Shown here: piece after piece, positions 5,344-30,852 of the stretch
How positions within the stretch are numbered: position 1 is the stretch's first letter
Layout: every line of letters starts with the position of its first letter
NCBI GenBank assembly: GCA_015063535.1
Contig: SVTY01000002.1
Location: forward strand, 80,034 to 144,033
Direction of reading: 5' to 3'
DNA length: 64,000 nt
DNA from: Oscillospiraceae bacterium
GTDB lineage: Bacteria > Bacillota > Clostridia > Oscillospirales > CAG-272
The notes under the pieces: generated by a model
What the model was told of the DNA's origin: nothing
Seen by the model: only the letters and a program-made list of their open reading frames with translations
Database searches by the model: none
Made by a program: the position numbers and the translations under genes

Positions 5344-6450
5344 TTGATTATTGCATTGGAAGACGCAAAATATAAGCTGATCGGTATGCGGACGGATATT
5401 GAGGATCTGGGCTCGGCTCTTCGGATTGGGGAGCTTCGTGCTCTTGCTGAGGAGCTGGATCGGCAGACTTTGGATCCCGATTTTTGGTCGAATCAGGAAA
5501 ATTCCTCCAAGGTTTTGCAAAAGGTAAAGCAGACCAAGGATACCATAGAGGGCTTTGATTCCTTACAGGAGCGGCTGGAGGATGCCATTACCTTGGCGGA
5601 AATGGCAATTGAGGAAAACGACGAGAGCTATGTGGAGGAAGTGGAGAGCGAGCTGCAACAGATTGCCAAGATCGCAGAGGAGCGTCGCATAGAGATTCTT
5701 CTGTCGGGCGAGTACGATAAAAACAACGCCATTGTTTCCTTCCATCCCGGCGCGGGCGGCACCGAGGCGCAGGATTGGGCGCAGATGCTGTACCGCATGA
5801 TTACCCGTTGGGCAGAGCGCAGAGGCTACAAATATAAGCTTCTTGACTGGCTGGACGGCGATGCCGCAGGTATTAAGAGTGCAACGATCATGGTCGAGGG
5901 CTTGAATGCCTACGGCTATTTGAAGGCGGAGAACGGCGTTCACCGCTTGGTGCGTGTCTCTCCCTTTGATGCCGCAGGCAGACGGCAGACCTCCTTTGCA
6001 TCCATCGAGGTCATGCCCGAATTTGATAACATCGACAAGGTGGAGATTCGGGACGAGGATATCGAGGTGACCGCCCATCGCTCCAGCGGTGCGGGCGGAC
6101 AGCATATCAACAAGACCGATTCTGCTATCCGTATTTTGCATAAGCCTACGGGCATTGTCGTAGGCTGTCAGACCGAACGTTCTCAGCTTCAGAACAAGGA
6201 AACGGCAATGAAGATGCTGAAGGCGAAGCTGATGGAGATCAAAATTCGGGAACGCCTTGATACCATCGAGGATATTCAGGGAAATAAGACCAATATCGAG
6301 TGGGGCTCTCAGATCTGCTCCTATGTCTTTATGCCCTATACCTTGGCAAAGGATACCCGTACAGGGCATGAGGATGGCAATATCTCCGCTGTCATGGACG
6401 GAGAGATCGACGAGTTTATTAACGAATATTTGAAAATGAATGCGAAATAG
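5344..6450 (+). CDS. prfB: Peptide chain release factor 2
   Basis: Recognises UGA and UAA stop codons and triggers peptide release. The GGQ motif (SSGAGGQHINKTDSA, about residues 240-254) and the RF2 anticodon tripeptide SPF (in VRVSPFDAAGRRQ) are both present, with the N-terminal helical domain before them. 368 residues from TTG 5344, which has GGGAGG five bases upstream; the same frame remains open to a TTG at 5329 that lacks a good ribosome site. The start region contains GGGAGG-TTT-CTT-TGA, nearly the classical RF2 frameshift motif, but an upstream frame ending in this TGA (ATG 5312) would need a -1 or +2 shift, not +1, to enter this gene. I therefore annotate a plain TTG start. Confidence 0.93.
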   Translation: MIIALEDAKYKLIGMRTDIEDLGSALRIGELRALAEELDRQTLDPDFWSNQENSSKVLQKVKQTKDTIEGFDSLQERLEDAITLAEMAIEENDESYVEEVESELQQIAKIAEERRIEILLSGEYDKNNAIVSFHPGAGGTEAQDWAQMLYRMITRWAERRGYKYKLLDWLDGDAAGIKSATIMVEGLNAYGYLKAENGVHRLVRVSPFDAAGRRQTSFASIEVMPEFDNIDKVEIRDEDIEVTAHRSSGAGGQHINKTDSAIRILHKPTGIVVGCQTERSQLQNKETAMKMLKAKLMEIKIRERLDTIEDIQGNKTNIEWGSQICSYVFMPYTLAKDTRTGHEDGNISAVMDGEIDEFINEYLKMNAK

Positions 6451-6455
6451 AATGC

Positions 6456-6487
6456 GGTTACTTTTCTTTTAAAAAAGAAAAGTAACC
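6456..6487 (+). repeat. A/T palindromic repeat, family A, copy 1
   Basis: A perfect 15-bp inverted repeat, GGTTACTTTTCTTTT / AAAAGAAAAGTAACC, with a two-base centre, followed by the family tail CAAAAGAAAAC. It begins six bases after the prfB stop. There is no T-run after the hairpin, so it is not a classical terminator. Confidence 0.85.
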
Positions 6488-6606
6488 AAAAGAAAACTTT
6501 ACCAATTTTATCTTGAAAGTTTGCAATAAAGTAAAAAACAAAGCAAAAAATACAGTTACGGCTTTATGTAGGCGCAACAAAAAATTTTGCTTTGTTTTCT
6601 TTTTTG

Positions 6607-6638
6607 GTACTTTTTTCTTTTTTAAAAGAAAAAAGTAC
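6607..6638 (-). repeat. A/T palindromic repeat, family A, copy 2 (inverted)
   Basis: GTACTTTTTTCTTTT / AAAAGAAAAAAGTAC, preceded by TTTGCTTTGTTTTCTTTTTTG, which is the reverse complement of the family-A tail. It faces copy 1 across about 120 bases. Confidence 0.8.
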
Positions 6639-6735
6639 AGTCCTTTCCTTCTAACTCCACAAAACCGTCACGAAAAAATCATCGAAAATTTAGGGAAAGC
6701 GGAGAAGTGTTCACAGAAAGTTTATAAATATATGA

Positions 6736-6741
6736 TATAAT
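6736..6741 (+). promoter_or_regulatory. Possible -10 box for the Gld-type ABC operon
   Basis: TATAAT at 6736-6741. The best -35 candidate, TTCACA at 6710-6715, is 20 bp away, so the promoter is weak or needs an activator. Confidence 0.35.
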
Positions 6742-6811
6742 GTACTCTGTATCATAATATTTTTTGAAAACAGGAAAATACGCAAAAAACAGGAAAGGAA
6801 ATTCCCGAATT

Positions 6812-7897
6812 ATGATAAAAATTGAGCATCTGGTAAAGAACTACGGCTCCAACTGTGCCGTGGACGATATCAGCTTTGAGGTAAAGAAGGGAGAGATCGT
6901 CGGTCTGCTTGGCCCGAACGGAGCGGGAAAGAGTACGACGATGAACATTCTGACGGGGTATTTATCTGCCACATCGGGCAGTGTATCGGTTGCGGGCTTT
7001 GACGTACTGGACAATCCGTTGGAGGCGAAGAAGCACATCGGTTATTTGCCTGAGCAGCCGCCGCTGTATCTGGACATGACGGTGGAGGAGTATCTGATCT
7101 TCAACTACAATCTGAAGGGCTGTAAGCTGAATCGGGACAAGCACTTGGAGGAGATCTGCGACGTGGTGAAGATCCGTGATGTGTACAAGCGGATCATCAA
7201 GAATCTGTCCAAGGGCTATCGCCAGAGAGTCGGCATTGCGCAGGCACTGATCGGTTCTCCCGAGGTGATCATTTTCGACGAGCCGACGGTGGGACTTGAC
7301 CCCAAGCAGATCATCGAGGTGCGTAATTTGCTGCGAAATTTGGGGAAGGATCACACAGTAATTCTATCTACCCACATTTTGCAGGAGGTGCAGGCAGTCT
7401 GCGATCGGATCGTCATTATCAATAAGGGTAAGATCGTGGCAGACGAGCTGACCGAGAATATTACAAGAGCGGTGGAGAACAACCGTCGCTTTACGGTAAA
7501 GATCTGCGGTCCGCAGAAGGAGGTTCTTGCCATGCTTCGCTCCAAGCCCGGTATCGTGTATGCCGAGGTCATGCCGCAGAGAGACGGCGAGGCATATTGC
7601 TACACCGTGGAGAGCGAGGTCGGAGTGGATATTCGGAAGAATCTGTTTTACACCTTGGCGGAAAAGAACTGGCCCTTAGTGGGCATGGAGGCACTGGGCA
7701 TGAGCCTGGAGGATATCTTCATTGCCATTGTGGATCAGTCCTCTCAGAAAAATCGCTATGAGCGTCGGACAAAGACCCGTGTCGGCGCACGGGGCGAGGC
7801 AGAGAAGGATTTTGCCAAGACCGCCATGGAGAATGCCGGAAAGAAGCAGGGCGGAGAATTTTCCGCACTCTTCGGTGACGGCGAAGAGCAAAAGTAA
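6812..7897 (+). CDS. ABC transporter ATP-binding protein (GldA/NosF type)
   Basis: 361 residues from ATG 6812, preceded by AGGAAAGGAA; an upstream in-frame ATG at 6764 has no ribosome site. Walker A GPNGAGKST lies at residues 34-42, the signature LSKGYRQRVGIAQAL around 135-149 and Walker B VIIFDEPTVGLDP around 153-165, followed by the H-loop STHIL. The C-terminal 100 residues form the extra domain common in ABC-2 exporter ATPases, with a charged tail. It energises the permease and GldG-like proteins encoded next. The four genes overlap or nearly abut, which indicates one complex. Confidence 0.9.
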   Translation: MIKIEHLVKNYGSNCAVDDISFEVKKGEIVGLLGPNGAGKSTTMNILTGYLSATSGSVSVAGFDVLDNPLEAKKHIGYLPEQPPLYLDMTVEEYLIFNYNLKGCKLNRDKHLEEICDVVKIRDVYKRIIKNLSKGYRQRVGIAQALIGSPEVIIFDEPTVGLDPKQIIEVRNLLRNLGKDHTVILSTHILQEVQAVCDRIVIINKGKIVADELTENITRAVENNRRFTVKICGPQKEVLAMLRSKPGIVYAEVMPQRDGEAYCYTVESEVGVDIRKNLFYTLAEKNWPLVGMEALGMSLEDIFIAIVDQSSQKNRYERRTKTRVGARGEAEKDFAKTAMENAGKKQGGEFSALFGDGEEQK

Positions 7898-7912
7898 GGA
7901 GGGAGAAGGAAG

Positions 7913-8659
7913 ATGTTTGCCATTTACAAAAAGGAGCTTCGCTCCTACTTTATCAACGCCATCGGCTATGTTTATGTAGGCGTGTTTTTGGCGGCGGCGG
8001 CGCTGATGTGCTGCTATACTACCCTTGGCTCTCGAAGCTATGATACGGGTAGCTATTTTACCATGCTGATCTTTTCCTTTATTATTTTGATTCCTTTGCT
8101 GACGATGAAGCTGTTTGCCGAGGAAAAGAAGCTTCGTACCGAGCAGTTGCTTCTGACCGCTCCCGTTTCAGTCTGGGGCATGGTCATGGGTAAGTTTTTG
8201 GCGGCGGTTACTCTGTTTGTGGGAACGACACTGGTCTCTTGCATCAACTTTTTCCCGCTGTACAGCTATGCTAACACCGAACGGCTTGCCGATGAATATG
8301 GCGTGACTCATATCGGTCCCGTAACGGCGGAGATCATTTCCTGTCTGGTAGGCGTGATCCTCATCGGTATTGCTTTTGTCGCCATCGGTCTGTTTGTTTC
8401 GTCTCTGTGCGAGAATCAGCTGGCGGCGGCGGTCATTACCGTGGCGATCATTTTGGTCATGCTGATCTTGGATATGGTGAATCAGTATATCAATGTATAT
8501 GCCATTCGCTTTGTAATCAGCTGGATCTCGATCATGAGCCGTTTTTCGAACTTTACCACGGGCATTCTGGACTTTTCGTCCATCCTGTATTATCTGTCCA
8601 TTTCGGGCGTATTTCTCCTGCTTACGGTGCGTGTCTATGACAAGCGCCGTTGGGGTTGA
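7913..8659 (+). CDS. ABC-2 type permease (GldF-like)
   Basis: 248 residues, six hydrophobic segments. It starts MFAIYKKELRSYFINAIGYV, the usual ABC-2 permease entry with KEL before the first membrane helix, and includes LFAEEKKLRTEQLLLTAPVS between helices 2 and 3, characteristic of GldF/NosY-like permeases. GGAGGGAGAAGG precedes the ATG. It pairs with the upstream ATPase. Its stop TGA overlaps a possible ATG at 8659 of the next gene. Confidence 0.87.
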   Translation: MFAIYKKELRSYFINAIGYVYVGVFLAAAALMCCYTTLGSRSYDTGSYFTMLIFSFIILIPLLTMKLFAEEKKLRTEQLLLTAPVSVWGMVMGKFLAAVTLFVGTTLVSCINFFPLYSYANTERLADEYGVTHIGPVTAEIISCLVGVILIGIAFVAIGLFVSSLCENQLAAAVITVAIILVMLILDMVNQYINVYAIRFVISWISIMSRFSNFTTGILDFSSILYYLSISGVFLLLTVRVYDKRRWG

Positions 8660-8679
8660 TGAAAGAGAGGAAACCGAAG

Positions 8680-10344
8680 ATGAAACTGAAATCGGCAACC
8701 AGCCGCAAGCTCCGTTACGGCGGAGTTACGGCGATCCTGACGGCGTGCATCATTGCCGTTGTGATTATCGTCAATGTGATCTTTTCGGCTTTGGCACAAA
8801 AACTTCTTTGGTATGCGGATCTGACACCTGAGATGATGTTCACACTCTCGGATAATGCCATTGACCTTCTGGAAAACGGCGATCCCGAGTTTGAGGATAG
8901 CACGTCTCCCATCGAAATGGTGGACAAGCTCCGTGCTGAGAATCCGGATGAGGATCTTATGATCCGCATCATTTTCTGCGATGACCCCGATGCTTGGACC
9001 GAAAATACCTCCATGCGCTATGTGTATGAGACGGCAAAGCAGATGGAAGATGCGTTTCCCGATCACATTCGGGTGGAAAACGTCAACATCATTTGGAATC
9101 CTTCTGCGGTCAGCGGATATGCGGGAGTGACCACCACCAGCGTGGTAGTGGAGTTCGGAACCGAATATCGGGTTCGTTCGCTGAATCAATTCTATGTATA
9201 CAATACCGAGGATACCACCGAAGCTCCTTGGGCATATAACGGCGAAAAGATTTTGGCATCTGCCATTCTTGCCGTGACCCGTGCGGTATCTCCCATTGCC
9301 TGCTTTACCACCAACCATGACGAGGCACTGTACGACCCCGAGCTGGCACTGACTTTGGAAATTGCGGGCTTCCGTGTGCAGACCATTAATTTGGCAACCG
9401 ATGAGATCCCTGCCAACTGTCGGCTGATGGTGGTGTATAACCCTATGAAGGACTTTATGGTATCTGACGGAGGGATCACATCGGATATTGACGAGATCGA
9501 AAAGCTGGATGCCTTTTTGGACGGCACAAACTCTATGATGGTGTTCATGTCTCCTACGTTGACCAAGCCTCTGACCAATTTTGAGGAATTTCTTGCCGAA
9601 TGGGGTATTTCCTACGATCGCTATGAGGAGGACGGACAGGTTCATCCCCATATTGTACAGGACACCTCTCAGTCTCTCACGGTAGACGGTCATACCGTCA
9701 AGGCGGAGTATGAGACGCAGGGAACGGGCGGAAGCCTGACCAAGGATTTGCGGGCACGCTCCTCTACGCCTCCCGCCGTGATCTTCAAGAACGCCATGAC
9801 CATCTCGTATTCCGATCAGTATTCGCCGGCTCACTACACCGATGAGGAGGATGAAAGCATCTCCTTTGATTACGGTGCCTACGGCGTGGACGGTACCTAC
9901 CGTTCGATTTACGACGTGTTTGTAACAAGTGATAATGCCGTGGCAAATGCCAACGGAAAGGTTGTGGAAAAGGCGACTGCACAGAATCCGCTGAAGCTGA
10001 TGACCGTGACGGTGGAGAATCGAAACGTCAGTGAGGACAACTACGGATATTCCTCTGTTAACGAGGCATCCTATGTGATCGCCTGCGGCTCTCCCGAATT
10101 CGCCGCTCAGAGCTTCCTGCAATCCAATGCCTACGGCAACGGTGCCTTTTTGGAGTATGCGCTGCGGATCATCGGGCAGGAGCCTGTGCCGGTCGGCTTG
10201 ACCTTCAAGCCCTTTGGCGATTACACCATTGATACCGTCACCACCGCCGAGGCGACCCAGTACACGGTCGTGCTGACCGTGGTTCCCGCCGTGCTGGCAC
10301 TGGGCGTGGGTATTGTGGTGATCGTTAGGAGAAAGAACAGATGA
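8680..10344 (+). CDS. GldG-family ABC transport auxiliary protein
   Basis: 554 residues from ATG 8680 with GAGAGGAAA upstream; ATG 8659, which overlaps the preceding stop, is also possible. One N-terminal TM (about residues 14-37, ILTACIIAVVIIVNVIFSAL), a large extracytoplasmic domain and one C-terminal TM (about 528-549) before an RRKNR tail. The extracytoplasmic part resembles the GldG/IFT52-like domain of 'ABC-type uncharacterised transport' proteins (NPDEDLMIRIIFCDDPDAW, then AVSPIACFTTNHDE). In Bacteroidetes GldAFG supports gliding; in Clostridia the role is unknown. It overlaps the next gene by four bases (ATGA). Confidence 0.82.
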   Translation: MKLKSATSRKLRYGGVTAILTACIIAVVIIVNVIFSALAQKLLWYADLTPEMMFTLSDNAIDLLENGDPEFEDSTSPIEMVDKLRAENPDEDLMIRIIFCDDPDAWTENTSMRYVYETAKQMEDAFPDHIRVENVNIIWNPSAVSGYAGVTTTSVVVEFGTEYRVRSLNQFYVYNTEDTTEAPWAYNGEKILASAILAVTRAVSPIACFTTNHDEALYDPELALTLEIAGFRVQTINLATDEIPANCRLMVVYNPMKDFMVSDGGITSDIDEIEKLDAFLDGTNSMMVFMSPTLTKPLTNFEEFLAEWGISYDRYEEDGQVHPHIVQDTSQSLTVDGHTVKAEYETQGTGGSLTKDLRARSSTPPAVIFKNAMTISYSDQYSPAHYTDEEDESISFDYGAYGVDGTYRSIYDVFVTSDNAVANANGKVVEKATAQNPLKLMTVTVENRNVSEDNYGYSSVNEASYVIACGSPEFAAQSFLQSNAYGNGAFLEYALRIIGQEPVPVGLTFKPFGDYTIDTVTTAEATQYTVVLTVVPAVLALGVGIVVIVRRKNR

Positions 10345-12626
10345 GCATTGCGGAAAAGAAAAAGCAGACCCTGATGAAGCGCCGTATGTGGGCGATCATC
10401 ATTTCCGCCATTGTCATCATAGCCCTTGCCATTGCGTTGGTTTTTATCCTTGACTATGTCAAGACATTGACCTTTGAGGATGTGGACGGAACGGTCTATT
10501 ACATTCGAGAAAGGGATGATGTATGGGGCATGTACGACAAGGCGAAGGATCCGGTTCCTACCGAGCCGGAGCATGGGTATTATGTGACGGTTGCCGGAAC
10601 CTTGGTCGATGTGGATCCCGAGACGGGAGAATATACGGTCATTGCCGTGGTGGATACCGAAGGGAACGAGGTGGTCGGATTCAATTCCCGTATTCTGATG
10701 TTCCCGCATATAGAAAAGAAGAATATTCTGTCCTTGGAGGTGCATAACTCCCATGGAACCTATTCCTTTTTGCGGATCAACGAAGAGGGAGAGCTGGACA
10801 TTGAAGGAGACTTTATCATTGCTTCTTCTCCCATGACACCCTACGATCAGGAAAAATTTGCCTCCTTGTATGTCGGTGCCGGATACACAATATCTATTCT
10901 CAAGCTACAGGATCCGATCAAGGATGACGACGGTGAATTTACCGAATACGGACTGGCTCCTCAGACCCGTGTACGAACCACCGACGAGGCAGGCGAGGAG
11001 CTGGAGACGCCCGAGGAATACCTGTATGAGCCGGCATATTATATCATTACCGACGGCTCGGGCAACCGCCACAAGGTCATTATCGGCGACAAGCTGGTGA
11101 CAGGCGGCGGATATTACGCCCAATATGTGGATATCAGCGGTGAGAGCGAGGTCAAGCGGGATGCGGTGTATGTGCTGGATGCCGATACGGGCAACAGCCT
11201 GACCTGTCCTGTGGAGGACTATGTAACGCCGACGCTGACCTATCCCATGACTATGACCGACTACTTTGATGTGGAGAATTTCACTATCTCCCGTCTAAAG
11301 GACAGTGTCTTGCCCGGACAGAAGGAGCTGTATGAGAAGATCATTTCCTTCTCGTATGTGGATCTGGCTGAGCGGGAAAATACCATTGCGCAGACCATGC
11401 CCTATGTATTTGACATTGAGCTGGACGGCTATATGCCGGGAGATACCGCCATAGATGCCTGCTTGCAAAATATATATACTCCCTCCTTTGCGGGCGTCAA
11501 GAAGCTGTCTCCCTCCGATGTGGATTTGGCGGAGTACGGCTTGTATGCCCCCGAGGTGAATGAGGACGGAGAGCCTGTGACCGACAAGGACGGCAATCCC
11601 GTTTATACGCCCTATGCGGCATATGCCATTTCCTTTGAATATGATGTTTTGGATGATAACAAGCAAAAGGCGGGAACCATCCATCAGATGATCCTCATCA
11701 GCGAGAAGAACGAGGATGGCAATTATTACGCCTATACAGCGGTCAGCACGGTGACTGAGGATGAGAACGGCGAGAAGAAGATCGATCTGAGCTATACCTA
11801 CGATATGATCGTAGAGGTAGAGGGACACACCTTCACTTTCCTGGAGTGGGAGCGCTATGATTGGATCGACGCGAGCTATATCGGCGCGGGTATTGCTTAT
11901 GTAAAAAAGATCACGCTGGATTCTCCGAATTATCAAGCGACCTTTGAGGTGGATGACTCGCTCTTTACCATGACTGAAGATGGAATTGATTCCGGCAATC
12001 TGTTTGTTCACGCCTCCGATTCCAACGGAAATCAAATTGATTCCTTTGGGAAAATGACGGTGGTGGATGTCAACAATTTTATCTGGGAGATCACTACCTC
12101 CGAGATCAAGGTATACGATAAATCGGGAACCGAACGGAAAATGGCGGAGGGTGTGCCCTATTACGACTACAACAAGCTTGGCAGACAGGTTCGCTGTCGG
12201 AATGGGTATATCGACGGAGTGGAGTATGATGTGGAGGTCAAGGCGGATGAGATCCGTATTTTGTCCAACGAGGGTGCGCTGATGCAGACCATCGTGCGGT
12301 ATGACAGCAGTTTGTTCCGCAGCTTCTATGCGACACTGATCTACGCAACCATCGTTGACTCTTATGAGATGACCAAGGAGGAAGAGGCGGCACTCATTGC
12401 CGATCCCTCCAAGCACATTCTTACCATGACCATTACCACCGAGGATGCCGACGGAACGACCAAGACAACGACCTATTCCTTCTATTGGCTGTCCTCCCGA
12501 AAGGCATATATCACCATCAACGGAAATGGTGGCTTTTATGTGCAAAAGGCACGGGTGGATAAGTTTATCTCCGATGCGCAACGGTTCTTCGCTTATGAGG
12601 TGATCGAGCCGACAAGCAAGACCTGA
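10341..12626 (+). CDS. DUF4340 membrane-anchored protein
   Basis: 761 residues. One N-terminal TM (about 15-36, AIIISAIVIIALAIALVFIL), with the rest extracytoplasmic. Two DUF4340-like units are suggested by repeated YGL-x-P segments (EYGLAPQTRVRTT near residue 207 and AEYGLYAPEVNEDG near 395), each followed by beta-rich sequence. DUF4340 proteins regularly follow GldG genes. The four-base ATGA overlap with the GldG gene suggests coupled translation and a stable complex on the outer face of the membrane. The substrate is unknown. Two terminator hairpins follow. Confidence 0.82.
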   Translation: MSIAEKKKQTLMKRRMWAIIISAIVIIALAIALVFILDYVKTLTFEDVDGTVYYIRERDDVWGMYDKAKDPVPTEPEHGYYVTVAGTLVDVDPETGEYTVIAVVDTEGNEVVGFNSRILMFPHIEKKNILSLEVHNSHGTYSFLRINEEGELDIEGDFIIASSPMTPYDQEKFASLYVGAGYTISILKLQDPIKDDDGEFTEYGLAPQTRVRTTDEAGEELETPEEYLYEPAYYIITDGSGNRHKVIIGDKLVTGGGYYAQYVDISGESEVKRDAVYVLDADTGNSLTCPVEDYVTPTLTYPMTMTDYFDVENFTISRLKDSVLPGQKELYEKIISFSYVDLAERENTIAQTMPYVFDIELDGYMPGDTAIDACLQNIYTPSFAGVKKLSPSDVDLAEYGLYAPEVNEDGEPVTDKDGNPVYTPYAAYAISFEYDVLDDNKQKAGTIHQMILISEKNEDGNYYAYTAVSTVTEDENGEKKIDLSYTYDMIVEVEGHTFTFLEWERYDWIDASYIGAGIAYVKKITLDSPNYQATFEVDDSLFTMTEDGIDSGNLFVHASDSNGNQIDSFGKMTVVDVNNFIWEITTSEIKVYDKSGTERKMAEGVPYYDYNKLGRQVRCRNGYIDGVEYDVEVKADEIRILSNEGALMQTIVRYDSSLFRSFYATLIYATIVDSYEMTKEEEAALIADPSKHILTMTITTEDADGTTKTTTYSFYWLSSRKAYITINGNGGFYVQKARVDKFISDAQRFFAYEVIEPTSKT

Positions 12627-20983: not shown

Positions 20984-21012
20984 TTGACAATTGGGGGATA
21001 GAATGGTAAAAT
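20984..21012 (+). promoter_or_regulatory. Promoter of the giant surface protein gene
   Basis: TTGACA 20984-20989 and TAAAAT 21007-21012, 17-bp spacer. Confidence 0.88.
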
Positions 21013-21076: not shown

Positions 21077-24000
21077 ATGAAAAAATTTGTGTGGAAAAGA
21101 ATGCTTCCGGTTCTGATGGCGGTCGTTATGCTGACCTCCGCCTGTCTTTCGGTCGGTGCGCTGAGCGCTTCGGCGCCAACCGAGGAGGAGCCGATCTGGA
21201 CAGTAATACTGGAGGACGGTGTTCTGCGGGTACAGCTGAACGCCGAGCGACTGCATGCCCTGTTGGCGGATAAGCAGCTGACCAAGGAGGAGCTGAAGCT
21301 GCTTTTGCCCGAGGCGGTGACAGATGCGATAGAAAGCGGCGAGCTGTCCGCACAGGCGGTCCTTTCTCTGCTGACGGAATATCTTTCCACAGAAGATCTG
21401 ACCGAGCTGTTGGCGATGCTTCCCACCGAGCTGTTCTGGACATATTTTCCCTTTGAGGCGTGGGAGCAGCTGTTGACGGTGGAGGAGCTTCTTGCGATTA
21501 TTCAGCCCGATGCTATGTTGGCATCCGTTACGCCGGACGATCTGCGGAAAGTGCTGACCCCCGAGGTGTTGGAGCAGCTGTTAGAGAATTCGGACGCCAA
21601 GCAGGCGTTCCTCAACAGTGTCTGTGCCGATATGATCGACATAGAGGGGCTTTTGGCAAGCGATACCGACGGCTCTCTCCGTCGGGAGCTGGCGGGGCTG
21701 ATTGATTCCGATGTGGTGAATCAGCTGTTGAACGAGAATTCGTCTGCCAAAGAAAAGCTATTGAATTTTGCGGAATCGGGAACCATGCGTGACCGTGTGC
21801 TGGCGAACCACGATGCGGTGACCGGCTTGAAGAACTATTTCCTCAAGCCCGAGCATGATGCACAGGTCAATAACTTCGTTCACAACGAAACGGTCGAGCA
21901 GGAGCTGTACGACTCCGAGGAAGTTCATGCGTTTATCGAAACACATGTAGAGGTATTGACGGCACTGGAAAAGGTACTGACCGAGCACGGAACCGTCAAT
22001 CCCGCCAAGCTGACCGAGGCAAAGTGGAATCAGTGGCTGAATGCCTTGCATGTGGATATTGATGCCGACTTTGTTTCCACCCACCGCACCGAGCTGTTTG
22101 GCAGAGAGCTGACCGACTTGGAATTGGCGGACTTGGTGAACGGAAAAACAGAGTATCAGATGGTCTGTGACGGAACCGTTAAGCTCACCAAAATCGTAGA
22201 GATTTATAACCGAGAGCATGCCAATACGCCCATTACGGTCAAGAGCATGATCGACGCAGGGTTCTTTACCAACAAGGACATTGCCGACATGATGCACGAC
22301 AACTGGGCACAGCTATTGCAGACAGACGGGCTGATCGAGGTGATCTTAGAAGCGGTCGAGATTCCCTTGATCCTGCAGTATTTCCCCATCAAGGAGTTGG
22401 TCGAGGAAGCACTCGGCGGCTATGTGGGCATGTGGGAACACGGACTTCTGACCGAGGAGGAGATCATTGACGCAGTCGGCGGCTATGACACGCTTTTGAA
22501 TGCCCTGTTGCCCGAGCAAGCCGAGAAGATCATTGAGATCGTCGGCTATGAGGCACTGGCGACCTACTTGAATTTCCCCAAGCTGTTTGATGCGATCGGC
22601 GGCTACGAGACAGCACTCTCTTGGTACAGCATGCCCGAGCTGATCGATATTGTGAAGTTGATCCCCAAGGAAAAGCTGCTGTCCTTCGTTCGGGGCTTGG
22701 ATTTTGATAAGAAAGCACTGCTCACCCGTACCGTTGCCGAGCTTCGCCCGTTGCTTGCCGCAAAAAAAGATGAGGCAAAAACCTTCCTGAAGGCGGCGCT
22801 GAACGGTGTGATGACGATGCTGACCGAGCAGATCCCGCTGGTCGAGTTGAACGATCGGGCGATCATCAAATACGGAACCTTCCGCTTGAATGACTTTGTG
22901 ACCGAGTTGCTCCTTTGCCTGCCCGATATTGAGACCTTCCTTGCCATGGACGATACGAATCGCACGCTGTTTGAGCTGACCGTGACGGCACACATCGGCG
23001 GCGAGACCTTGGCGGAAGCCACCGAGGAGATGACATTGGGTGTGGTCGTAGAGCTGACGGGCGATCTGACTGCGCTCCAAGACCTTGTTTCGGATTATGC
23101 CGATTATTTTGACATTACCATTACTGAGCCGACAGGTGACGAGGCATTGGACGTTACCATGGATGTGATTGCGCCCGAAAAGCTGTCCGAGCTGTACAAG
23201 AAGGCGTTTGAGAGTGAAAAGCTGCCTGCCGAAGCCAAGCAGAAGCTTTTGGAAATTCCCACTATGACGGTGGCAGCGCTTGCCGATTGGCTGGAGAGCT
23301 TGACGCCCGAGCAGATGAAGGAGTGGGCGGATGCCTTGGAGGGATATTTGCCCGAGGGCTTGTTGGATAAGGTGCCGGATCGTGTGACCGAGCTGACAAG
23401 CGAAGAAAAACTGGATCTCCTTCGGGATAAGGTATTGACTGTTCTCAAAAAAGCAGAGGGCGTTGCGGCAGACCGCATCGTAGCCGATCTGTATGGCGAG
23501 GAGGGTATGTTTACCTTTACGCAGGAGCCGATCGACCTGTATGAGAAGCTGGCAAGATTCATTTCCGACGAAGAACTGTTGGAAAAGATCTATTTGTTCT
23601 TTGACAACAATATGTTCTTGAATATTCAGGGAACGGTCAATGTAAAGATCAACGGCTTGTATGAGCTGACCGTTACGGATGAGAGCGGCGTAGCCCATAC
23701 CTATTTCCTGCCCGACGGATTTGCTCTGAAGCATCTGAATACCTACGGCGGTCTGTCGTTGGATGCTCTTGACGGTGCAACCATGCCCGCCGAGGATTCG
23801 GCGTTATACTGGATCTATCTGTACGACAGCTATGAAAACGGCGAGTACGGCAATCTGACCGAAAAGATCCCTTACTGGAAGGGACAGTATACCGACAGCC
23901 TGTTGCCTGCCCTTCCTCCTCCTGCGGCGGATATGACCGAGGGACGGTGGATCCTGTCGGAGGCGACCGACGGCGATGCGGTGATCGTGAAAGCATACCC

Positions 24001-25849
24001 TGTATACAGCGAGCTGAATTATGTGGAGTTCTATATTGATGCCAACAACGATGGCGAGTGGGAGCTTTACAAGACCCTTGATTATATCAAAGGAACGACG
24101 GCGGTCGTTGCACCTGCTACTCCTCAAAGAGCGCATTATACCGCAACTTGGGAAGAATACGAAAGCCGTCTGAATACCCAAAAGACCGTCAAGGTATATG
24201 CGCAGTATGCGGCAACGAGCTACACGATCACGTATACCATTAACGGAGTGATCCACACGGATACCTATACCGTGGAGGATGGTTATGCCGATCTCGAGCT
24301 GCCCGATGTTCCTACCAAGCAGGGCTACAATCCGCCCCGTTTGGTATGGATGGATGGAGCAGTGGCAAGACCTTGGAGCGAATACGACTTTACCCGAGGC
24401 GGAGACATCTCGGTGTTTGCCGATTACGGAACTCCGATCGACTATACAGTTACCTTTAAGTTAAATGGGGAGACAGTGGGAACCTCCACCTTTAACGTAT
24501 TCGATATTGAGAACGGAACGTTTCTTGATGCGACCAAGCTGCCTACCATTCCCACAAAGCAGCACTATCATACACCCACATGGCAGTACACCCTGAAGTA
24601 CGACCATATTACCATCGAAGCGGTCTACGTTCCCATTGACTATGCCATTGCGTATTTCGTGGACGGTGCGCTCTACCCCCACAGCGGAAGCGCGACCTAT
24701 ACCGTAGAGACCCAAAAGGGAACGCTGAGCATTCCTGCCGTACCGCAAAAGACCGGCTATACCGGCGAATGGGTATGGATGGATGGAGATGTTGCCAAGC
24801 CCTGGTCGGAATACGACTTTACCCGAGGCGGACAGATTCGTGTTCTGGCATCGTACAATAAGATTACCTATGAAGCGGCATTTTGCGTGAACGGCGTGCC
24901 GCAGGATACGGTATACTTTACCATTGACGATGTCAATGCGGGCAGACTGCCCCGCATTCCCGAGGTTCCCGCCAAGAAGGGCTATACCGGCGAATGGGCA
25001 TCCTATACCCTGAGATGTAGGAGCTTTTCGGTGGAGGCGATCTATACCGCCATTATCTACACCGCAACCTTTATTGCAGACGGCGAGGTGCAGGGAACCG
25101 TGAACTTTACGGTGGAGGACGATTCCATTCAGGAGCCGCCCGTTCCCGAAAAGGAAGGATATATCGGCGCATGGGAGCCCTACACCTTGGATGCGAAGGA
25201 TCTGGAGATCCATGCGGTCTATACCGCTATCGGCAGCGGAGAGACTCCCGGTGGAACGCCTGATACCTCTACGGATACCGAGGAACCCGACAAGACCAAG
25301 CCGGGAGTTCCGGGAGACGACGGTGACGATGATGACGACAAGGGCGGTCTTAGCTGGATCTGGTGGCTGATCCTGATCCTCATTCTCATCATTGCGATCC
25401 TTCTGACGGTCATTCTCATCATGAGAAACATGCACAATGATGACGACGATGACAACACGCCTCCTCCCGCACCTGCGGTAGTGCCCGAGCCTGAGCCCGA
25501 GCCCACGCCCGAACCCATTGTCGTTGTGGAGGATGTGGATGTGGAAACGGCAGATGCTCTGATGAGCGATGCTACGGCACTGTCGGTGATCGAAACCGTC
25601 GGCGGAGCCGGTGTCGGACTCCGAGTGATCATCAATGTTCATGACTTGGAGGCTCGCTTCCAAGCAGGAGATACGGTAGATCTGGAGACATTGAAGGCGA
25701 TGAAGCTGGTTCCCGCCAAGGGACAGCGCCTGAAGGTGCTTGCCGATGGACATTTGAGCAAGCCGTTGACGGTCATTGCCGATTCCTTCTCGGTACAGGC
25801 GGTGAAGATGATCACGTTGACAGGCGGAAAGGTCATCCAAAAGAAGTAA
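21077..25849 (+). CDS. Giant membrane-anchored surface protein with InlB-type repeats and a ribosomal L15-like cytoplasmic tail
   Basis: 1590 residues. A signal peptide (KKFVWKRMLPVLMAVVMLTSACLSVGALS) covers about residues 1-32. Residues 35-860 are helical and very rich in Leu/Glu, with recurring short units such as IGGYETAL, VGGYDTLL and EELLAII. Residues about 1046-1385 are five Listeria-Bacteroides (InlB B-type) beta repeats, each opening Y-x-(I/V/A)-x-(Y/F)-x-x-(N/D)G. An acidic Thr/Pro linker leads to one TM (about 1425-1449, WIWWLILILILIIAILLTV), then a PEPEPEPTPEP linker and, from 1518 to the end, a segment matching the C-terminal half of ribosomal protein L15 (INVHDLEARF, LKVLADGHLSKPLTV, FSVQAVKMI, GGKV). 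Topology would place the adhesin outside and the L15-like domain inside. It has its own promoter and terminator. Function unknown. Confidence 0.8.
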   Translation: MKKFVWKRMLPVLMAVVMLTSACLSVGALSASAPTEEEPIWTVILEDGVLRVQLNAERLHALLADKQLTKEELKLLLPEAVTDAIESGELSAQAVLSLLTEYLSTEDLTELLAMLPTELFWTYFPFEAWEQLLTVEELLAIIQPDAMLASVTPDDLRKVLTPEVLEQLLENSDAKQAFLNSVCADMIDIEGLLASDTDGSLRRELAGLIDSDVVNQLLNENSSAKEKLLNFAESGTMRDRVLANHDAVTGLKNYFLKPEHDAQVNNFVHNETVEQELYDSEEVHAFIETHVEVLTALEKVLTEHGTVNPAKLTEAKWNQWLNALHVDIDADFVSTHRTELFGRELTDLELADLVNGKTEYQMVCDGTVKLTKIVEIYNREHANTPITVKSMIDAGFFTNKDIADMMHDNWAQLLQTDGLIEVILEAVEIPLILQYFPIKELVEEALGGYVGMWEHGLLTEEEIIDAVGGYDTLLNALLPEQAEKIIEIVGYEALATYLNFPKLFDAIGGYETALSWYSMPELIDIVKLIPKEKLLSFVRGLDFDKKALLTRTVAELRPLLAAKKDEAKTFLKAALNGVMTMLTEQIPLVELNDRAIIKYGTFRLNDFVTELLLCLPDIETFLAMDDTNRTLFELTVTAHIGGETLAEATEEMTLGVVVELTGDLTALQDLVSDYADYFDITITEPTGDEALDVTMDVIAPEKLSELYKKAFESEKLPAEAKQKLLEIPTMTVAALADWLESLTPEQMKEWADALEGYLPEGLLDKVPDRVTELTSEEKLDLLRDKVLTVLKKAEGVAADRIVADLYGEEGMFTFTQEPIDLYEKLARFISDEELLEKIYLFFDNNMFLNIQGTVNVKINGLYELTVTDESGVAHTYFLPDGFALKHLNTYGGLSLDALDGATMPAEDSALYWIYLYDSYENGEYGNLTEKIPYWKGQYTDSLLPALPPPAADMTEGRWILSEATDGDAVIVKAYPVYSELNYVEFYIDANNDGEWELYKTLDYIKGTTAVVAPATPQRAHYTATWEEYESRLNTQKTVKVYAQYAATSYTITYTINGVIHTDTYTVEDGYADLELPDVPTKQGYNPPRLVWMDGAVARPWSEYDFTRGGDISVFADYGTPIDYTVTFKLNGETVGTSTFNVFDIENGTFLDATKLPTIPTKQHYHTPTWQYTLKYDHITIEAVYVPIDYAIAYFVDGALYPHSGSATYTVETQKGTLSIPAVPQKTGYTGEWVWMDGDVAKPWSEYDFTRGGQIRVLASYNKITYEAAFCVNGVPQDTVYFTIDDVNAGRLPRIPEVPAKKGYTGEWASYTLRCRSFSVEAIYTAIIYTATFIADGEVQGTVNFTVEDDSIQEPPVPEKEGYIGAWEPYTLDAKDLEIHAVYTAIGSGETPGGTPDTSTDTEEPDKTKPGVPGDDGDDDDDKGGLSWIWWLILILILIIAILLTVILIMRNMHNDDDDDNTPPPAPAVVPEPEPEPTPEPIVVVEDVDVETADALMSDATALSVIETVGGAGVGLRVIINVHDLEARFQAGDTVDLETLKAMKLVPAKGQRLKVLADGHLSKPLTVIADSFSVQAVKMITLTGGKVIQKK

Positions 25850-25918: not shown

Positions 25919-25952
25919 GGCGCAGCTGCGACTTTGCGGCTGCGCCTTTTTT
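25919..25952 (+). terminator. Terminator of the giant surface protein gene
   Basis: GGCGCAGC (25919-25926) pairs with GCTGCGCC (25939-25946), followed by TTTTTT. Confidence 0.9.
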
Positions 25953-27650: not shown

Positions 27651-28742
27651 ATGGAAGAAAATAAAACGAAGCAACAGGAATTGAAGGAACAGATTTTGTC
27701 TTTGTGCGGCATCATGTCTGTGTCGGGCTTTGAGCCGAGAGCGACCGAAGCCATTCGGGAGAAGCTGGGAGCGGCGTTTGACGAGCTGACTGTCGATGCG
27801 GTAGGCAACCACCTTTTGGTCAAGCGGTGCGGCAGAGCCAAGGCACCTCTTGTGTTGGTGGACGCCCATTTTGACGAGATCGGAATGCTGGTGACCGAGC
27901 TTTGCGAGGACGGTTTTGTACGGGTGGCGTCGGTAGGCGGACTGTCTGCCACCGTTCTTCAGGCGGCGGATGTCATTCTGTACGGCAAGGAGCCGGTGCG
28001 GGGTGTGGTGACCTCCACACCGCCCCATCTGAAAAAAAATGACGAGGAGTCTCTGCCCGAGGCGGAGGAGCTTTTGGTGGATACGGGATATTCCAAGGAG
28101 CGGCTTGCCGAACTTGTATCGGTAGGCACGCCTGTGGGCTTTTCTCCCTGCTATTCCGAGCTTCTCGGCGGATGCCTTGCGGGCAAGAGCTTTGACAATA
28201 AGGCGTGTGCCGCCATTGCGGCGTATGCCATTGCCCATACGCCCAAGGAGCGGCTTGCTGCCGACGTGGCGTTTCTGCTCTCCTCCTATGAGGAGACCTC
28301 TGCCAAGGGCGGCGTATCGGCGGCGACCTACCGCTTGCAACCCGATTATGCCATGGTCATCGACGTGAATCTGGCGACCGTTCCCGACGTACCCAAGCGG
28401 GAAACCGTTCCCTTGGGAGCAGGAGTGTCTCTTTCGGTTTCGGCGGCGACCGACCGACGGCTGACCGCCATGACCCGCGCCCTCTGCGAGGATCGGGCGA
28501 TCCCGCATACTATGATCGCCGCACCGTCCTCTACGGGAACCAACGCCACTTCGGTGAATTTGGTTCGGGGCGGTATTCCCGTGGTAGATGTGGGTCTGCC
28601 TCTGCGGAGCATGCATACCTATAATGAAGTGATCTCCCTGAAGGATGCGCAAGCTCTTTGCGAGCTGGTGGAAGCGTTTATCGGCAGTCAGCGGCTTGCC
28701 GACACCTTCGGGTACACAGAGAAGGAGGAGCTTCCTATATGA
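27651..28742 (+). CDS. M42-family aminopeptidase, paralogue 1
   Basis: 363 residues. M42 enzymes are two-metal aminopeptidases forming tetrahedral dodecamers that trim peptides released by proteases. Visible motifs are HFDEIG (usually HMDEIG), GKSFDNKAC in place of the common LDDR metal site, SSYEETSAKGG with the catalytic Glu pair, VIDVN and the terminal MHTYNEVISLKD histidine. The asparagine in FDN rather than DD sets it apart from paralogues 2 and 3. AGGAAG precedes the start. It ends in an ATGA overlap with the next gene. Confidence 0.9.
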   Translation: MEENKTKQQELKEQILSLCGIMSVSGFEPRATEAIREKLGAAFDELTVDAVGNHLLVKRCGRAKAPLVLVDAHFDEIGMLVTELCEDGFVRVASVGGLSATVLQAADVILYGKEPVRGVVTSTPPHLKKNDEESLPEAEELLVDTGYSKERLAELVSVGTPVGFSPCYSELLGGCLAGKSFDNKACAAIAAYAIAHTPKERLAADVAFLLSSYEETSAKGGVSAATYRLQPDYAMVIDVNLATVPDVPKRETVPLGAGVSLSVSAATDRRLTAMTRALCEDRAIPHTMIAAPSSTGTNATSVNLVRGGIPVVDVGLPLRSMHTYNEVISLKDAQALCELVEAFIGSQRLADTFGYTEKEELPI

Positions 28743-29851
28743 AAACTGCCATAGATTCGGTCTCTCTGATTCGGGAGATGTGCGGTCTGTTCGGCCCCTC
28801 CGGCTGTGAGGGAGAGGTCGCAGACAGGATCGAGCAAAGGATCCGTCCGTTCTGCGACAGCGTGGTACGGGATCGGATGGGCAATGTGCTGGCACTGATC
28901 CGAACGGGGAGCAATCGGACGGACGACCGCTGTCGGATCATGCTGTCCGCCCACATGGATGAGGTGGGCGTGATGCTCACCGAGCTTTGCGAGGACGGAC
29001 TGTTTCGCTTTGATACGGTGGGTGGGATCTCTCCCGCCGTGCTGGAGGGAAGAAAGGTGACACTGGGAGACGAGATCAATCGCCTTTCCGGTGTGATCGC
29101 CTCCAAAGCCATTCACCATAAGAAAAAAAGCGAGCGGAACAAGCCCACGCCCATTGAGCAAATGGTCATTGATATTGGCGCCGAAAGCAAGGAGGAGGCG
29201 GAACGCTATCTGTCGATAGGCTCCTTCGGTACCTTTGATTCGGAATGCTATCTCTTCGGTGAGGAGGACGGCTTTATTAAAGCGAAGGCGTTGGATGACC
29301 GTATGGGTTGTGCCGCACTGATCGAAATTATGCGATCGGTCTTTGAGAACCGTCCCACTGCCGACCTTGATCTGTATTTCTGCTTTACCGTGCGGGAGGA
29401 GATCGGCTTGTCGGGAGCTAAGGTAGCGGCGGAGAAAATCGCCCCCGACTATGCTATCGTTTTGGAAACCACGGCGGTTGCCGATCTGCCCGAAACGCCT
29501 GTGGGGCGGCGGGTAGCAAGCCTTGGCAAGGGCGGCGTGCTGTCGGTCATGGATCGCTCTACCATATACGATCATGAATTTTTCATGAAAGCGAGACAGA
29601 TTGCCGAGACAAACGGCATTCCCACCCAAGTGAAGCAGTATGTATCCGGCGGAAACGATGCGGGATCGATCCACAAAACGGGAGTGGGCGTTCGTTGCCT
29701 TGCTCTGTCGGTTCCCACCCGATACCTGCATTCGCCCTCTTGCGTGGCAAGTCTGTCTGATTATCGGGCAGTGCGGGAGCTGACTGAGGTACTGATCCGT
29801 ACCTGCCCGCTGTGGTGTACAGACGAAATGAAAAAGGAGAAAACAGTATGA
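28739..29851 (+). CDS. M42-family aminopeptidase, paralogue 2
   Basis: 370 residues from ATG 28739, which overlaps the previous stop (ATGA) with GAAGGAGGAG just upstream. Motifs are HMDEVG, KALDDRMGC, VREEIGLSGA, VLETTAV (Glu where many relatives have Asp) and HSPSCVASLSD. It carries an extra KKKSERNKPTPIEQM basic loop around residues 123-137, before the VIDIGAESKEEAE segment. Middle gene of a coupled trio. Confidence 0.9.
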   Translation: MKTAIDSVSLIREMCGLFGPSGCEGEVADRIEQRIRPFCDSVVRDRMGNVLALIRTGSNRTDDRCRIMLSAHMDEVGVMLTELCEDGLFRFDTVGGISPAVLEGRKVTLGDEINRLSGVIASKAIHHKKKSERNKPTPIEQMVIDIGAESKEEAERYLSIGSFGTFDSECYLFGEEDGFIKAKALDDRMGCAALIEIMRSVFENRPTADLDLYFCFTVREEIGLSGAKVAAEKIAPDYAIVLETTAVADLPETPVGRRVASLGKGGVLSVMDRSTIYDHEFFMKARQIAETNGIPTQVKQYVSGGNDAGSIHKTGVGVRCLALSVPTRYLHSPSCVASLSDYRAVRELTEVLIRTCPLWCTDEMKKEKTV

Positions 29852-30852
29852 AATTATATACAACGTTACAAGCCCTCTGTGCCACTCCGTCAGTGTCGGG
29901 CAGAGAAGAAGCGATCCGAGAGGTGCTTCGGGAGCGCATCGTCCCCTTTGCCGACGAGGTTCGGGTCGATCCGTTGGGAAACCTGATTGCGACCAAGAAG
30001 GGAAGCAGTGCGGGAAAGAGTGTGTTGCTCTGTGCGCATATGGATGAGATCGGCTTTCTTGTCACCTTTGTGGAGGAGAACGGATGGCTGCGGGTCGCTC
30101 CCGTGGGCGGAATCTCGTTTGCGGCGTCTGCCTTTTCCTCTGTGGTATCCGAAAACGGTGTGCGTGGCTCCTTGGTTCCCGAGGAGAAGGTGAAGCCCGC
30201 CGACTATACCGCCGATCGGTTTTATATTGACATCGGTGCCAAGAACTGCAAGGAAGCCCAAAAGCAGGTTTCGATAGGAACATTTTTTGTGGCGGAGGGC
30301 GGAGTGCGCCGTCTGAAGGGCAAGCGAGTTATGGGCAGACCGCTGGATGACCGTATCGGCTGTGCGGTGTTGCTTGCCGTTGCCGAACAGCTTGCCGAGG
30401 TATTGCTTGAGGGAGACGTGTATTATGTGTTCTCGGTTCAGGAGGAGGTTGGATGCCGAGGTGCCCTGCCTGCGGCGTTCGGACTTGCGCCCGAGTATGC
30501 ACTTTGCTTCGATGTTACGGCAACAGGTGACGTGCCGGGCACAGCTCCCATGGCATGCTCCTTGGGAGGCGGAGCGGCGATCAAGATCAAGGATCGGTCG
30601 GTGATCTGCTGTGAAGAGGTGGTCAAGAGACTTTGCTCCTTGGCAGAGGAGAATAAGATCCCCTGTCAGCGGGAGATACTGACCTACGGCGGAACCGATA
30701 CCTCCTCTATGCAGCTCGCAGGCGGCGGCTGTCGGGCAGGTGCTTTGTCGATTCCCTGCCGCTATATCCATACCTCCGTCGAGCAGTGCGACCTTGCCGA
30801 TGCCGAAGCCTGCGTCACCTTGGCGGTTGCGTTTGTGAAGGATGCGGTATAA
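29848..30852 (+). CDS. M42-family aminopeptidase, paralogue 3
   Basis: 334 residues from ATG 29848, again an ATGA overlap with the preceding gene and an AAAAAGGAG ribosome site. Motifs are HMDEIG, RPLDDRIGC, VQEEVGCRGA, CFDVTATGDVPG and IHTSVEQCDLADAE, all in the family-standard form, so of the three this is the most canonical M42 peptidase. A family-A repeat starts just after the stop. Confidence 0.92.
   Translation: MKLYTTLQALCATPSVSGREEAIREVLRERIVPFADEVRVDPLGNLIATKKGSSAGKSVLLCAHMDEIGFLVTFVEENGWLRVAPVGGISFAASAFSSVVSENGVRGSLVPEEKVKPADYTADRFYIDIGAKNCKEAQKQVSIGTFFVAEGGVRRLKGKRVMGRPLDDRIGCAVLLAVAEQLAEVLLEGDVYYVFSVQEEVGCRGALPAAFGLAPEYALCFDVTATGDVPGTAPMACSLGGGAAIKIKDRSVICCEEVVKRLCSLAEENKIPCQREILTYGGTDTSSMQLAGGGCRAGALSIPCRYIHTSVEQCDLADAEACVTLAVAFVKDAV

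Follow-up and report, generated by a model that had tools for sequence, protein, structure and literature searches.

A uL15-derived domain that appears to serve as a shared inner module of clostridial surface and biofilm proteins

The window analysed here, a stretch of 64,000 nucleotides of Oscillospiraceae DNA, encodes a giant surface protein of 1590 residues whose C-terminal domain appears to have been borrowed from a ribosomal protein as a shared inner module of surface and biofilm proteins. We term this module L15L and define it by the combination of a helical cap motif and the signature KMIxLTGG on a membrane-anchored protein; the tail of the window protein has both. That this tail is related to ribosomal protein uL15 is supported by profile searches and by structure prediction. 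The Pfam L15 family PF00828 matches it with an E-value of 4.9e-15 and 56.1 bits (cut-off 21.5), covering all 72 positions and far above noise, solved uL15 chains match it from an E-value of 6.3e-10, and the predicted structure superposes on L15. The blocks from which the earlier note had recognized the resemblance, namely INVHDLEARF, LKVLADGHLSKPLTV, FSVQAVKMI and GGKV, are all present in the translation. That note had treated the last 73 residues as the unit; the assignment to L15 stands, but the module begins further upstream, near residue 1487, with a two-helix cap (residues 1489-1503) predicted within the same fold. As the source assembly is 83.9% complete, comprises 22 contigs and is presumably metagenome-derived, a chance resemblance or an assembly chimera might be suspected; this is vanishingly improbable given the above E-value, an intact second copy of the tail in the same assembly and 252 confirmed relatives in a named GTDB collection.

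The gene is an intact open reading frame at 21077-25849 on the forward strand, evident from the open reading frame list and its translation, with an ATG start and, by eye, AGGAG seven bases upstream of it. It probably constitutes its own transcription unit, because it is preceded by a sigma-70-like promoter (TTGACA-17-TAAAAT, 20984-21012, 11 of 12 matches, with TG before the second hexamer) and followed by an intrinsic terminator-like hairpin of 12 pairs and T6 (25919-25946), both on the same strand. These are consensus matches only: the promoter is the best of seven sites in the region, against 4.2 expected in shuffled sequence, and the terminator scan gave eight sites against 4.3 expected. 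The order of elements described in the earlier note is borne out throughout the protein, all on the forward strand. By simple hydropathy there is a signal-peptide-like N-terminus with a hydrophobic stretch at residues 8-31 (21077-21169), followed by a region of InlB/Listeria-Bacteroides-type repeats at about residues 985-1395 (24029-25261, outer limits by eye), in which PF09479 matches three stretches, with copies at 24729, 24954 and 25131, at a marginal 28.1 bits against a cut-off of 27. A single C-terminal transmembrane (TM) segment (residues 1421-1454; 25337-25438; peak hydropathy 3.67) leads into an acidic, PEP-rich linker apparent in the translation (1455-1486; 25439-25534), the cap recognized by its motif ETADALMSD and predicted fold (25541-25585), and the L15-like domain delimited by Pfam, the uL15 chains and the predicted structure (1518-1587; 25628-25837), within which tail comparison places the family signature KMITLTGG (25805-25828). 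No Pfam family other than PF00828 and PF09479 scored above cut-off in the protein. It thus resembles InlB-repeat surface proteins in its signal-peptide-like start and marginal PF09479 repeats, but differs in being anchored by a TM segment with an L15-like tail, with no LPXTG-type end visible by eye.

Of uL15 (rplO; PF00828, TIGR01071) the window tail has the C-terminal L15/L18e/L27A domain: its match begins near L15 residue 70, and in place of the Gly/Arg-rich N-terminal half, which in uL15 enters the rRNA, there are the acidic linker and the TM segment. L15L further differs from uL15 in its helical cap, the KMIxLTGG signature and several altered basic positions, and the rplO equivalog model TIGR01071 gives only 36.2 bits for the whole protein and 41.3 for the tail alone, against a cut-off of 77.95. 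We rejected the notion that it is a real ribosomal protein or an L15 replacement on account of this score and of the separate L15-sized frame (143-175 residues) found in 13 of the 21 tail-bearing genomes of the same genus; no such frame was found in the other eight. In the window's own genome the search, which also missed one of 14 control genomes, recovered neither a separate L15 nor SecY, and because SecY was not found either, the likely cause is that the ribosomal spc operon is missing from this incomplete assembly. A third PF00828 match in that genome (contig C7, position 92966; 12 bits, E 0.4) lies inside an unrelated repetitive surface protein and was taken as chance.

A column-by-column comparison of 23 L15 sequences with 91 L15L domains revealed that L15L retains most of the L15 core signature, whereas the E following G, present in 100% of L15, is variable. 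Four lysine columns of L15 (K in 87%, 87%, 91% and 100%) are respectively changed to P (56%), E (49%), I or V (51% and 37%) and M (95%), the AA ahead of GG becomes LT, and lysine is commoner in three L15L columns (87%, 78% and 92% against 13%, 30% and 0 in L15); of these, the 95% M, the LT and the 92% lysine lie inside KMIxLTGG, by which 80 of the 91 domains were found, and are biased, the remaining columns being unbiased. The lysine columns at 87% against 13% and 78% against 30% both lie outside every pattern used for searching. Likewise, KMIxLTGG is invariant in 72 aligned rows, but 71 of these were found by that signature, and since the pattern used for searching contained the letters K, M, I, L, T, G and G, the named loci are invariant at these positions by construction. 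The net charge of the L15L domain is mostly positive, from -2 to +8; the two true L15 domains for which charge was counted carry -1 and +1.

The cap, with the motif EEADxLMSD, corresponds to helices 13-19 and 22-27 of the structural model, upstream of the domain, and the prediction for it is as highly confident as for the domain itself. Among 37 tails found with PF00828, 27 have both cap motif and LTGG and ten have neither. Similarly, with cap states assigned by hand, 41 of 51 L15L rows have both, nine neither and one LTGG only; as these rows offer only two supported independent contrasts, we make no statistical claim for joint evolution. The cap pattern missed eight of 80 named proteins, seven of which have a recognizable cap by eye (L137 does not), as well as L070; it flagged two proteins judged false by eye (L036 and L060), and L071, where it found no domain, was left out of the set of 37. 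In a tree of 74 domains (23 L15, 51 L15L) a single branch parts L15 from L15L with support of 100/96, which is consistent with L15L having arisen once; the tree is unrooted, comes from a short alignment with bootstrap values not fully settled, and draws its L15 rows from the window's order only.

The arrangement put forward in the earlier note, an adhesin outside and the L15-like tail inside, stands as a prediction: the window protein has one TM segment after its signal-peptide-like start, and the tail probably sits in the cytoplasm. Consistent with this, 55 of 70 relatives carry more K and R after the last TM segment than before it, and a cytoplasmic L15L also agrees with the relatives that have an N-terminal TM segment or a YjbR/YdhG-like domain between the TM segment and L15L. 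These assignments are based on hydropathy and charge counts. Unlike the window protein with its one segment, 15 proteins of the genus have by hydropathy a pair of C-terminal hydrophobic segments in addition to the N-terminal one; their tails would then lie outside, unless a further, weaker segment also spans the membrane, as by eye may be the case in L034 and L048.

The second tail in the window's genome belongs to L034 (positions 5748-10349 of the locus, on contig C7), which encodes a helical-looking surface protein of 1534 residues with a DUF1542 match and extra hydrophobic segments, with two at the C-terminal end by hydropathy. Tail proteins, one or two per genome, occur in 21 of the 29 relatives searched in the same genus, 12 of which encode two; the other eight, four of them at least 90% complete, have none, so the module is accessory. 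Conservation of the TM segment plus L15-like tail across Clostridia, a possibility raised in the earlier note, holds, but in this patchy form. L15L tails were also recovered in two of six other genomes of the family, and a search of 23 genomes representing the order's other families yielded no long frame carrying an L15-like domain. Of 394 genomes of the order, nine contain an exact DNA pattern for KMIxLTGG, each of them a member of the window's family; in a class sample the pattern occurs in two of 196 genomes, one being the window's own. The pattern matched 276 stretches of the named GTDB collection, 252 of them confirmed and 80 kept; NCBI places 77 of the 80 in Clostridia, including one Candidatus Borkfalkia, with two in Bacilli and one assigned no further than Bacillota. 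Such pattern counts miss members with other forms of the signature.

The 80 named proteins comprise 31 with a large ectodomain followed by a TM segment, 23 with an N-terminal TM segment and a long cytoplasmic part, 16 small ones with an N-terminal TM segment, and ten that show no TM segment or an open 5' end. Judged by these predicted layouts, the L15L family occurs on several unrelated architectures. Comparison of the window protein with ten distinct homologues from the 25 best-matching rows gave 51-69% identity for the tail, against 24-32% for the best partial alignment of the ectodomain; the tail is under tighter constraint than the ectodomain.

Several relatives contain a second conserved domain of about 165 residues (VRYxRSFxAKLIQ ... 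RGKTLxLYLALDP; L123:2972-3472, L118, L114, L126 and others), which we call YRSF. It occurs in one or two copies per protein and corresponds to no clear Pfam family, none being matched in more than three of 27 members. We suspect a YjbR/YdhG-like fold; identity to YjbR, YdhG (DUF1801) and frataxin-like proteins is 8-11% in the rows compared, and the Foldseek E-value is 0.09 at best. The window protein lacks this domain; a search run without a known positive genome recovered it in none of 30 genomes of the genus, and it is present in a genome of the same family (G030, locus L071). In L125, L126, L128 and L136 a second gene near the L15L gene encodes a protein ending in YRSF, and as only 4 to 9 residues remain after it, no L15L follows.

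The small forms showed a conserved gene neighborhood. Ten of the 20 L15L proteins shorter than 260 residues are encoded directly after a gene for a SipW-type signal peptidase; six others have no such neighbor, and the neighborhoods of L111, L119, L121 and L130 could not be judged. There is no gap between the two genes in eight cases and one of 15 bases in L113, and in L092 the peptidase was missed by the greedy gene picker; in nine of the ten the genes overlap by four bases (ATGA or GTGA). Eight of the loci and L092 have a gene for a protein of about 170 residues (P170) ahead of SipW (L113 starts at a contig end), and eight loci and L092 have TasA-like genes one or two genes downstream of L15L, with none within three genes downstream in L089. 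Nine of the 16 peptidases found were scanned, and all nine match the SipW model with scores under the cut-off; of 15 TasA-like neighbors scanned, of 27 found, 14 match PF12389 (Peptidase_M73/camelysin) and 13 the SipW-dependent signal model. These P170-SipW-L15L-TasA-like clusters lie in uncultured Clostridia (L085:4507-11863, L094, L107 and seven other loci); by eye their SipW proteins have a charged, coiled-coil-like C-terminus, and five loci have a second SipW-type gene. They are reminiscent of TapA-SipW-TasA, described as the matrix operon of Bacillus (PMC4551309, PMC6334530), in combining SipW-type peptidases with TasA/CalY-like proteins, but differ in adding the membrane protein of about 170 residues and the L15L protein. 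The gene order links L15L to matrix secretion in genomes with the SipW-linked small forms, and not in the window's genome, where no SipW match was found at E<=1e-10 in the 83.9% complete assembly. Six of 30 genomes of the genus match SipW at that threshold, only three strongly, and as four genomes (G000, the window's own, G001, G010 and G011) have L15L tails and no SipW match, we rejected SipW as a universal partner.

Computation supports the uL15 homology, the capped form of the predicted fold, attachment to the membrane with a predicted inner position of the domain, and its presence on unrelated ectodomains, together with the overlap of small-form genes with SipW, their nearness to TasA-like genes and a tail conserved more than the ectodomain. 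We propose, tentatively and with a little less than even confidence, that L15L is a repurposed C-terminal domain of uL15 acting as a common cytoplasmic adaptor beneath a set of envelope proteins. The uL15 domain would have been duplicated, have lost its rRNA-binding N-terminal half and, in most members, have gained the helical cap and acidic tether. Every L15L would then bind either a single cytoplasmic partner common to all or further L15L domains, and this binding may hold, cluster or position adhesins and the matrix-fiber machinery at the membrane. A common partner or self-pairing appears most likely because the conserved domain occurs with unrelated ectodomains as well as in small proteins that have none. 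Alternatively, L15L might still bind RNA or ribosomes, either to tether ribosomes or its own mRNA to the membrane or to repress its own synthesis, as many ribosomal proteins do. The retained core signature, the new conserved lysines and the mostly positive charge would fit this; we nevertheless consider it unlikely, given that the Gly/Arg-rich half is gone, that the common L15 lysines have been replaced (the column now 95% M being part of the search pattern), and that the uL15 site on the ribosome should be filled by the true L15, for which frames of suitable size exist in most tail-bearing genomes of the genus.

The single TM segment with a compact, confidently predicted fold behind it would also suit a passive knob, a fast-folding cytoplasmic domain that keeps a giant protein from being dragged across the membrane or extracted from it. 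Against this, the tail is conserved far better than the ectodomain, it occurs on small proteins with no ectodomain to hold, and its lysines and cap motif look conserved beyond the need of a knob; we regard this reading as quite improbable. We give similarly little credence to L15L being a sensor that reports contact or secretion state to gene expression. SipW of B. subtilis is reportedly bifunctional, controlling biofilm formation besides cutting signal peptides, and the gene overlap and SipW C-termini described above would accord with such a role, but the window protein has no fused known regulator domain and L15L tails occur in genomes without this SipW. One may also conceive, with rather low probability, of an undescribed trans-envelope system in uncultured Clostridia, in which adhesins, TasA-type fiber machinery and a second family, of YjbR-like membrane proteins, would all use capped uL15 domains as inner plugs to dock on a single receptor in the cytoplasm; this receptor might be nucleic acid or even the translation machinery.

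The L15 fold itself is known, and the listings and opening lines of abstracts in the open-licence PMC literature gave no description of surface or membrane proteins using it as a tail module. Few proteins in biology are as constrained as the universal ribosomal proteins; if this proves a clear case, a ribosomal protein copied, stripped of its rRNA-binding half and spread as a module under surface proteins would show a ribosomal fold evolving along an unusual route, and L15L would offer a handle on how gut Clostridia tie adhesins and matrix fibers to the cell. As Pfam calls the domain, such proteins likely carry an automatic L15 label, which on large membrane proteins is misleading, and these tails could contaminate marker-gene sets. 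We also considered a role in defense and rejected it, PADLOC giving no match for the window protein and weak PDC-S18 matches only on the YRSF part of L114. Elsewhere in the window, at 27651-30852, three genes in a row encode proteins that by eye resemble M42-type aminopeptidases, downstream of a gene that by eye is ComM-like.
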